Source: Alicyclobacillaceae bacterium I2511 (GTDB lineage Bacteria > Bacillota > Bacilli > Alicyclobacillales > Alicyclobacillaceae). Taken from it: a stretch of 64,000 nucleotides of DNA. How positions within the stretch are numbered: the stretch's first letter is position 1; every line of letters starts with the position of its first letter. Location of the stretch: positions 1-64,000 of the forward strand of contig QXHL01000005.1 of assembly GCA_003584005.1 (NCBI GenBank). Direction: 5' to 3'. A program made the position numbers and the translations under genes. The notes under the pieces were generated by a model, which saw only the letters and a program-made list of their open reading frames with translations, did not search any database and was not told the DNA's origin. Shown piece by piece: positions 4,325 through 6,907 of the stretch.

Positions 4325-4399
4325 GCGCCTATAGCTCAGAGGATAGAGCACCGGTCTCCGGAACCGGTTGCGGGGGTTCGAGTCCCTCTAGGCGCACCA
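4325..4399 (+). tRNA. tRNA-Arg (anticodon CCG)
   Basis: A complete cloverleaf of 75 bases with encoded CCA (4397-4399). Acceptor arms GCGCCTA and TAGGCGC pair fully. The D arm is GCTCAGAGGATAGAGC. The anticodon stem CCGGT/ACCGG carries the loop CTCCGGA, so the anticodon is CCG, reading CGG codons. The T loop is TTCGAGT. It is followed by its own terminator. Confidence 0.97.
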
Positions 4400-4425
4400 A
4401 TGTTTCTGTAAATTTTTGTGGAACG

Positions 4426-4454
4426 GCTCACAATGAGTGAGCGTCTTTTTTTTT
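4426..4454 (+). terminator. Intrinsic terminator after tRNA-Arg
   Basis: Arms GCTCAC (4426-4431) and GTGAGC (4437-4442) with a 5-base loop are followed by a run of nine T (4446-4454). It separates the tRNA from the trp-type leader downstream. Confidence 0.88.
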
Positions 4455-4533
4455 AGCATGCTTCATTTCTCTACATTCCCTAGGGCGAACCAGGGTCGGA
4501 CCCATTGACGAGTGACTGTTCTCCAGGGTAAGC

Positions 4534-4583
4534 TAGATATAGTTGAGCTGAGCAAGATTGAGCCGAGTTGAGTGGAGCTTGAG
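4534..4583 (+). promoter_or_regulatory. TRAP-type binding site in the trpG-trpE leader RNA
   Basis: Nine exact TAG or GAG triplets lie in 50 bases: TAG at 4534 and 4540, then GAG at 4545, 4550, 4560, 4565, 4570, 4575 and 4581, spaced by 2 or 3 bases. A gap in the phase is filled by AAG at 4554. Rows of about 11 (G/U)AG triplets with 2-3 base spacers are the established binding site of TRAP (MtrB) in Bacillus trp leaders. Bases 4547-4558 can also pair with 4612-4624 (seven pairs with one G-U, plus four), which would form an antiterminator covering the 5' arm of the terminator. TRAP bound to tryptophan would block that pairing. A promoter is not clear: TTGACG at 4505 lacks a good -10. Confidence 0.75.
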
Positions 4584-4616
4584 GGACCGGATGGTCATTT
4601 CTCATACGCCCATTTT

Positions 4617-4641
4617 GCCACAGCGACGTCTGTGGCTTTTT
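4617..4641 (+). terminator. Attenuator terminator upstream of trpG
   Basis: Arms GCCACAG (4617-4623) and CTGTGGC (4630-4636) with a 6-base loop are followed by five T (4637-4641), 48 bases before the trpG start codon. Its 5' arm overlaps the strand that can pair with the triplet-rich region upstream, as expected of an attenuator rather than an end-of-operon terminator. The reading frame that can be extended upstream through this region is not coding. Confidence 0.8.
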
Positions 4642-4689
4642 GTGTGCTCTCCTGTGGTCCAGCTCGTCGAGCTGAAGGGGTCGATTGGT

Positions 4690-5253
4690 GTGCTACTGGT
4701 GGTTGATAATTACGATTCGTTCACTTTTAATCTCGTACAGTACTGTGGCGAACTGGGAGCCGAGATTCAGGTTCGGCGGAATGACGTTTCCTTAGCGGTG
4801 CTGATGGATTTACATCCGCAGGGTCTGTTAGTGTCCCCTGGACCATGTAGCCCTACTGAAGCAGGTATTTCAGTCAGTGCTATCCAGCACTTTGCAGGAA
4901 GAATCCCGGTACTTGGGGTTTGCTTAGGGCATCAAGCATTGGGGGAGGCTTTTGGTGGGAAAGTTGTGCGGGCTCCAATATTGAAACACGGAAAGACCTC
5001 CTTAATACATCACCACGGGGATCCTTTGTTTCAGGAGGTATCCAACCCTTTTCAAGCCACGCGCTATCACTCCCTGGTGGTGGATTGGACCACCCTTCCC
5101 GATGAGTTCACCGTTATTGCTGATTGCGATGACTTGGTGATGGGATTGCGCCATCGACCGACGGGGGCCTTGGGAGTCCAGTTTCATCCTGAATCCATTC
5201 TTACACCGGAAGGCAAGCGAATTATAGGCAATTTTTTGACTTTGGTTGGATGA
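4690..5253 (+). CDS. trpG: Anthranilate / aminodeoxychorismate synthase glutamine amidotransferase
   Basis: 187 residues from the GTG at 4690, placed 9 bases after GAAGGGG. It opens LLVVDNYDSFTFNLVQY, the family signature. It has the class I amidotransferase nucleophile in GVCLGHQ and the histidine-glutamate pair in VQFHPES. It releases ammonia from glutamine for the partner TrpE (anthranilate, tryptophan pathway). In Bacilli one such subunit often also serves PabB for folate. Followed after 49 bases by trpE. The TRAP-type leader before it argues for tryptophan control. The order G before E, with no trpD next to it, is unlike the usual trp operon. Confidence 0.9.
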   Translation: MLLVVDNYDSFTFNLVQYCGELGAEIQVRRNDVSLAVLMDLHPQGLLVSPGPCSPTEAGISVSAIQHFAGRIPVLGVCLGHQALGEAFGGKVVRAPILKHGKTSLIHHHGDPLFQEVSNPFQATRYHSLVVDWTTLPDEFTVIADCDDLVMGLRHRPTGALGVQFHPESILTPEGKRIIGNFLTLVG

Positions 5254-5302: not shown

Positions 5303-6907
5303 ATGAAAAAAACGACGTGGACGATTCAAAATGGGGTAGATCCGTTTGCCTTGTTTTTGCGTCTTGTGGAGGAGTTTGGTGAAGGTCAGGTGTTTTTGCT
5401 GGATGCCGCAGAAGATCATAGCGAGTCACACTATTGCATGAGTCTTCTGGCTGTGCTTCCCGTAGTGGAGGTGCAAGTGAAAGACCACTGGGTGTCCCTG
5501 TTTGCACCTTCAGGGATGCTTGAAAAACTTGGAGTTGCTGTTTTGAAAAACTCTGAAGAAAACTGCGCAGCAGGGAATGCTCCGGAGCCGTCGTCCAGTG
5601 TTGTGGGTCCCGTCCAGGGGCAACGGTTTGAGAATAATCCTATGGATTTCTTGGAAGGTTTGCGAACTCGCGTGCGGGAGTTATTCACAGACCCAGTGTG
5701 GGCCCCCTTTTCTGCTGGTTGGTTGGGGTACGTGGGGTACGATAGCGTTCACTATTTGGAGCGACTCCCAAAAACGACACAAGACGATCGGCAACTTCCA
5801 GACATTCGATTGCAGTGGCATGCGGCCGTGTTGCAATTGGTGGAAGGGAAGCTGAGTCTGTTTGACAGCAGTGAAGAATTGGGGTCTTTACTTGACCCAG
5901 ATGTGTGGATTGCGGTAAAAAACCAAGTGAATAAAGTCGCAGATACAGTCAAGCGGTTCATTCAGCGTCCGATGACAGCGACAGCATTGCTGGCCCGTTA
6001 TGAAGAGCAAATCCCTGCGGTTACGGGAGACGTGCGGCAGTGCATGGAGTCCTCAGATACACAGGATTTACTCACTGATGAGGTTACGCAACAGGAGTAT
6101 GAATTGGCTGTAAACAAAGCTGTATCTTACATTCATGCGGGAGACATTTTTCAAGTTGTGCTGTCAAAGCGGATTCGCGTCCGCAAAGTGTGTAACGCGT
6201 ATGAGGCTTACGAACGTTTGCGTAGGCGTAACCCGTCGCCATACATGTTTGTGGCGGACTATCCGGACATGCGCCTGTTTGGAGCTAGTCCTGAAGTTCA
6301 ATTTCGTAGTGTGAACGGAATCGCGGAAATGCGTCCGATTGCTGGCACCTCTAAGGGGAGGGGCAGGACGCTCGCTGAAGACGAGCTTTTACGGGCAGCC
6401 TTGTTACATGATGAGAAAGAACGGGCTGAACACGTCATGCTTGTGGACCTGTGTCGCAACGACCTGGGGCGTGTGTGTAAAATTGGCAGCGTCCAGGTAC
6501 AATCTTTGATGCAGGTGGAACCTTACTCTCACTTGTTCCATTTGGTTTCTGAAGTATCGGGACAGTTGAGACCGGAAGTGAGCGTTTTTGATGCACTACT
6601 GGCCACTTTTCCCGCAGGGACACTGTCAGGTGCACCGAAAATTCGGGCTATGGAAATTATTGATGAGTTAGAAACCTTACGCCGTGGACCTTACGGAGGG
6701 TTGATTGGTATGGTGGATTTTGCGGCCAATGCGAACACAGCCATTGTCATTCGTACGGTTTTAGAGTGGAAACATGAGTATTATGTGCAGGTGGGAGCGG
6801 GAATTGTTGCGGACAGTCAGCCCGTTCAAGAATGGCAAGAGTGCAATCACAAGGCGGGTGCAGTGCTGGAAGTATTGCAGGCCCTCTCGACAGTGGTTCA
6901 GGGTTAA
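5303..6907 (+). CDS. trpE: Anthranilate synthase component I
   Basis: 534 residues, preceded by GAGGAGG. The C-terminal chorismate-binding domain is complete: GDIFQVVLSKR, SPYMFVADYPD, FGASPE, RPIAGTSKGRGR, EHVMLVDLCRNDLGRV, FPAGTLSGAPKIRAMEIID and GGLIGMVDF. The alanine of PIAGT fits anthranilate synthase, since E. coli PabB has lysine there. The N-terminal domain is less typical. The tryptophan-binding LLES motif reads LLDA, and the usual RYS segment is replaced by HYC, so feedback binding of tryptophan may be weak or lost (inference). It works with TrpG just upstream. A PABA synthase is the alternative, but the leader favours tryptophan synthesis. Confidence 0.85.
   Translation: MKKTTWTIQNGVDPFALFLRLVEEFGEGQVFLLDAAEDHSESHYCMSLLAVLPVVEVQVKDHWVSLFAPSGMLEKLGVAVLKNSEENCAAGNAPEPSSSVVGPVQGQRFENNPMDFLEGLRTRVRELFTDPVWAPFSAGWLGYVGYDSVHYLERLPKTTQDDRQLPDIRLQWHAAVLQLVEGKLSLFDSSEELGSLLDPDVWIAVKNQVNKVADTVKRFIQRPMTATALLARYEEQIPAVTGDVRQCMESSDTQDLLTDEVTQQEYELAVNKAVSYIHAGDIFQVVLSKRIRVRKVCNAYEAYERLRRRNPSPYMFVADYPDMRLFGASPEVQFRSVNGIAEMRPIAGTSKGRGRTLAEDELLRAALLHDEKERAEHVMLVDLCRNDLGRVCKIGSVQVQSLMQVEPYSHLFHLVSEVSGQLRPEVSVFDALLATFPAGTLSGAPKIRAMEIIDELETLRRGPYGGLIGMVDFAANANTAIVIRTVLEWKHEYYVQVGAGIVADSQPVQEWQECNHKAGAVLEVLQALSTVVQG

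Follow-up and report, generated by a model that had tools for sequence, protein, structure and literature searches.

The window analysed here is a 64,000-nt stretch of the Alicyclobacillaceae bacterium I2511 genome, which carries trpG and trpE on the forward strand. The trpG gene (4690 to 5253, GTG start, 187 aa) encodes the glutaminase of anthranilate synthase and matches PF00117 and TIGR00566 above cut-off. The trpE gene (5303 to 6907, 534 aa) encodes anthranilate synthase component I and matches PF00425 and PF04715; its best NCBIfam match is trpE_most, below the curated cut-off. The leader described below would control both of these tryptophan biosynthesis genes. A Shine-Dalgarno sequence (AAGGGG, 4675 to 4680) precedes trpG and is abutted on its 5' side by a small hairpin of putative function, CAGCTC-GTC-GAGCTG (4660 to 4674). 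The hairpin motif is also found in six related leaders (L007, L008, L012, L014, L019 and L020). The GAGCTG of its right half also occurs in the triplet array described below, so that CAGCTC could pair with either copy. The genome contains only two chorismate-binding enzymes, TrpE and one encoded beside a MenE-like gene (contigs C188 and C155), the second being a probable isochorismate synthase, MenF. No pabB was visible in this survey of the genome's chorismate-binding enzymes. TrpG may therefore serve tryptophan only, and the genome may lack the usual route of 4-aminobenzoate synthesis.

Upstream of the leader, a tRNA-Arg(CCG) gene (4325 to 4399) and its own terminator form a separate unit (4325 to 4454, forward strand). 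The initial annotation regarded it as unusual that the leader directly follows this terminator. The neighbour looks incidental because several relatives have another tRNA, or none, at that place.

A dense array of triplets lies between the tRNA unit and trpG. TAG occurs at 4534 and 4540, and GAG at 4545, 4550, 4560, 4565, 4570, 4575 and 4581. The gap in the GAG series is filled by AAG at 4554. The spacers are 2 to 3 nt except for a single nucleotide before the AAG. These are the seven GAG, two TAG and interposed AAG of the initial annotation, and their coordinates were verified in the DNA. The array was scored as a chain of (G/T)AG at 2 to 3 nt spacing with one missing slot permitted. It scores 8.1. 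The highest scores among 3000 dinucleotide shuffles of 4400 to 4689 and among 3000 shuffles of the array alone were 5.2 and 7.0, respectively, and elsewhere in the window no 400-nt tile scored above 3 on either strand.

The triplets begin where the putative promoter ends. A -35 box (TTGACG, 4505 to 4510) is followed, after an 18-nt spacer, by a -10 box (TAAGCT, 4529 to 4534) that overlaps the first TAG. The arrangement TTGAC[GAT]-N17/18-TAA[GT]CT, or a close variant, immediately precedes the array in nearly every leader of the same family, and most of these leaders have AG[AT]TGAG 6 to 7 nt 3' of the -10 box. Transcription of trpGE probably starts near 4541, the A of AGTTGAG, which is 7 nt after the -10 box. 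In a same-genus relative (L007) the first TAG is gone and the -10 box is retained. The two TAGs reported earlier are thus present in the DNA but probably belong to the promoter or to the initiation region. One falls partly within the conserved -10 box and the other across the predicted start, so only seven GAG and the AAG are probably in the RNA, compared with nine (G/U)AG triplets in the DNA. The usable TRAP site (4545 to 4583, forward strand) is probably these seven GAG and one AAG. Stable TRAP binding is achieved with at least 7 repeats (PMC4027176), a number that the seven GAG reach. The AAG interruption is seen again in the arrays of many relatives and is explained by its position in the antiterminator helix described below. 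About 4 nt separate the predicted start from the first GAG, which would leave no room for a 5' stem-loop of the B. subtilis type before the triplets. That absence hinges on the predicted start, and the stem-loop is treated here as a B. subtilis feature and not as one that defines the mechanism. As judged by eye, leaders of the sister family have a more distant upstream promoter, separated from the array by a stretch that can form a hairpin.

An intrinsic terminator (4617 to 4641, forward strand) follows the array and precedes the first trp gene. It consists of a 7-bp hairpin, GCCACAG-N6-CTGTGGC (4617 to 4636), and TTTTT (4637 to 4641), ends 48 nt before the trpG GTG, as first described, and is conserved. 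An alternative pairing joins the array to the terminator. Its 5' strand, GCTGAGCAAGAT (4547 to 4558), lies within the array, and its 3' strand, ATTTTGCCACAGC (4612 to 4624), overlaps the 5' arm of the terminator. All 11 pairs of this duplex are standard and are interrupted by a 1x2 internal loop. The three parts of an attenuator (array, terminator and alternative pairing) were consequently all found where the initial annotation had placed them.

Covariation supports the antiterminator. The structure was taken from the window sequence and applied to an eight-leader alignment that was not fitted to it. In this alignment 91% of cells are paired compared with 83% in shuffles, none of 500 shuffles reaches the score, and three pairs show compensatory changes on both sides, although related rows inflate such counts. 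Versions of the antiterminator slid along the same alignment pair at most 47% of cells. Across 12 genera, with anchors chosen by eye, same-species duplexes differ from swapped ones at P = 0.025. When the RNA is made to end at the terminator loop, the predicted fold has the GCAAG part of the pairing in this leader and in L007, L008 and L019.

Folding of the complete leader gave a different picture. The comparison of folds with and without the array blocked, which had been suggested as a check, revealed no equilibrium switch in the leader's own sequence, since the probability of the terminator is about 1 both ways. Within the same family the terminator probability is 0.81 with the array free and 0.83 for shuffled arrays, which is no difference. 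The antiterminator energy of the single sequence is no better than that of shuffled arrays, and free duplex energies between the array and the terminator arm did not separate real pairs from swapped or shuffled ones. Because equilibrium folding showed no same-family switch, truncated transcripts and covariation were used instead. Since the leader's own terminator wins at equilibrium, antitermination would have to be kinetic and occur during transcription. In the sister family the probability of the terminator is 0.15 with the array free, 0.81 with the array blocked and 0.73 with shuffled arrays, so that there the folding model alone displays a clear switch. A long stem around the array, obtained by folding 4480 to 4650, was rejected because the left side of this stem falls within the promoter and the fold has z = -0.1.

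A TrpG search of 41 genomes yielded 30 best loci, the I2511 locus included, which belong to the Alicyclobacillaceae and the sister family. The trpE gene is 3' of trpG and a triplet array is upstream of trpG in all 30, most of which also have a terminator. The number of triplets ranges from few to many, and every relative assessed has an array. L022 and L025 have their arrays placed over the trpG Shine-Dalgarno sequence, and a search for a terminator found none in these two. The leaders of trpD are similarly marked, with an array score of at least 4 in 29/29 loci with enough upstream sequence. Some of the trpD arrays cover the trpD Shine-Dalgarno sequence (L073, L075, L077 and L079) rather than lying upstream of a terminator, which suggests that relatives have switched between transcription and translation control of trpD. 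The 23 trpB copies inside operons (L101 to L123), where the upstream sequence is coding, served as an internal negative control and score at most 2.2. The array of an Alicyclobacillus MAG (L125) is identical to that of G013. A wider contig scan gave matches mostly in distant phyla, with one near record, an Alicyclobacillus that corresponds to G013. As read from these sequence comparisons, the switch is real and conserved across a whole bacterial order.

The initial annotation made its reading depend on an mtrB gene, and the genome has one (E 1.3e-35). The product scores above the cut-off of the curated MtrB model NF009724, and the closest solved structures are all MtrB. It retains EKLDK and KIRG at the positions of the TRAP RNA contacts Glu36/Lys37 and Lys56/Arg58 (PMC4027176). 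An mtrB gene was found in 36/41 genomes, and the five without a match include incomplete assemblies. The gene order in I2511, with neighbours assigned by sequence, is spoIVA-mtrB-hepS, as in B. subtilis. No homologue of rtpA (anti-TRAP), the second gene named by the initial annotation, was detected in the I2511 genome, whose assembly is 98.4% complete in 232 contigs. One clear anti-TRAP homologue was found among the 41 genomes (G010, 65 aa, L241:1501-1698), and the 3.2-kb locus around it has no T-box family match.

Other genes of I2511 appear to be marked for TRAP. The pattern KAG(N2KAG)3 has four matches in the 3.48 Mb genome: the trpGE leader, the trpD leader, a second trpB and an amino-acid permease. 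The reversed pattern has six matches in the whole genome, so the number of matches is no evidence. What counts is that each of the four lies at a trp gene or an amino-acid-transport gene. A genome scan for five triplets with one mismatch added one match, on contig C160. The trpD unit is arranged as aroB, leader, trpD-trpC-trpF-trpB-trpA and then further aromatic genes, and it shares its contig with mtrB. Gene names in this unit beyond trpD and trpB were read from ORFs and are not based on profiles. The operon of trpG and trpE in that order is therefore as first described, but it is not the whole pathway, because another contig carries trpDCFBA, likewise marked for TRAP. As annotated from sequence, the genes for tryptophan are split between two main units, trpGE and trpDCFBA.

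The second trpB stands alone (L244:2413-3615; G000:C66:36412-37611), is 59% identical to the operon trpB and has its match in the Shine-Dalgarno region. Copies with 80-92% identity to it occur in genomes scattered through both families, and it looks to have spread horizontally along with its TRAP site. Arrays at such copies are clear in L095 and L096 and partial in L097 and L098. The last, the stand-alone trpB of G031 (G031:C9:84393-85583), has one reported in-frame TGA. In the permease the match lies in the start region, and close relatives have GAG-rich start regions as well (L207, L208, L209, L210 and L212). This is suggestive only of TRAP sites, because Shine-Dalgarno sequences resemble the triplets.

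From the parts of the leader, their conservation and covariation, and the presence of TRAP, we infer with high confidence that this is a TRAP-controlled transcription attenuator that responds to tryptophan. RNA polymerase would start at approximately 4541, making the TRAP site the first stretch transcribed. When tryptophan is low, 4547 to 4558 would pair with 4612 to 4624, engaging the terminator's left arm and allowing trpGE to be transcribed. When tryptophan is ample, TRAP would wrap the seven GAG and the AAG and remove the antiterminator strand. The hairpin at 4617 to 4641 would then form, and transcription would stop before trpG.

An unlikely alternative is that TRAP binds the leader and acts mainly on translation or directly on the polymerase, the terminator switch being secondary. 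TRAP might favour the hairpin by the trpG Shine-Dalgarno sequence or push the polymerase forward, as proposed for B. subtilis, where TRAP can terminate transcription without the attenuator hairpin (PMC3913778). Several relatives have the CAGCTC/GAGCTG hairpin directly beside the Shine-Dalgarno sequence, and L022 and L025, in which no terminator was found, carry their arrays on that sequence. However, blocking the array barely shifts Shine-Dalgarno accessibility in L006 (0.46 and 0.46) and has inconsistent effects elsewhere, and the conserved terminator and covarying antiterminator argue for attenuation. Much less probable is that the leader is a relict with a TRAP site too short or weak for binding and a constitutive terminator. 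In its favour, only seven GAG would be available if the RNA starts near 4541, and the equilibrium model gives a stable terminator even with TRAP absent. Against it, many genera retain the array, its spacing and the covariation. The least credible reading is control by another sensor, such as a T-box or a leader peptide rich in Trp, in which case the GAG repeats would be incidental. Such systems share the arrangement of leader, terminator and biosynthetic gene seen here. Against it, neither the T-box nor any other leader family is matched above threshold in the window, and the leader of approximately 150 nt begins with the array. The one reading frame noted across this leader extends trpG upstream and lacks a run of Trp codons, and the genome has mtrB.

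TRAP-mediated attenuation is a known mechanism, and the layout found here looks like a variant of the B. subtilis case. TRAP attenuation is known in detail mainly from B. subtilis, a species in which it is complicated by a 5' stem-loop, by weak terminators and by anti-TRAP. The B. subtilis trp leader has 11 repeats, a 5' stem-loop, an antiterminator at +60 to +111 and a terminator at +108 to +133 whose hairpin is weak and poor in GC and whose U-tract is interrupted (PMC4027176, PMC3913778). The I2511 leader resembles that of trpEDCFBA in its (G/U)AG array, in the overlap of antiterminator and terminator, in the hairpin near the Shine-Dalgarno sequence and in the neighbourhood of mtrB. It differs in having seven GAG and an AAG at the extreme 5' end with too little space before them for a 5' stem-loop, a terminator hairpin that is rich in GC and followed by TTTTT, an antiterminator strand formed by the first part of the array, and control of trpGE instead of trpE to trpA. 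In B. subtilis TRAP also controls the translation of trpG, trpP and ycbK, which provide TrpG and tryptophan transport. The GAG arrays at the Shine-Dalgarno and start regions of the second trpB and the permease are comparable to these, whereas the trpG array of I2511 lies upstream of a terminator and not on the ribosome-binding site. Among the relatives, only L022 and L025 have a trpG arrangement like that of B. subtilis. Of the anti-TRAP control circuit, I2511 has TRAP and its targets, and no rtpA was detected in the genome. The literature searched, which left most subscription journals outside its scope, held no description of TRAP control in Alicyclobacillaceae. We lean slightly towards an Alicyclobacillaceae-type leader that lacks a 5' stem-loop, has its transcription start at the TRAP site itself, uses the AAG as part of the antiterminator strand, ends in a true intrinsic terminator and serves a regulon of trpGE, trpDCFBA, the second trpB and the permease, mostly without anti-TRAP. 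The order offers dozens of natural leaders in which this protein is paired with a strong terminator and with a shorter site, interrupted and placed at the 5' end, so that it becomes testable which parts of the attenuator are truly needed. It also presents a TRAP circuit in which trpE is joined to trpG outside the main trp operon, and each half has its own TRAP site.
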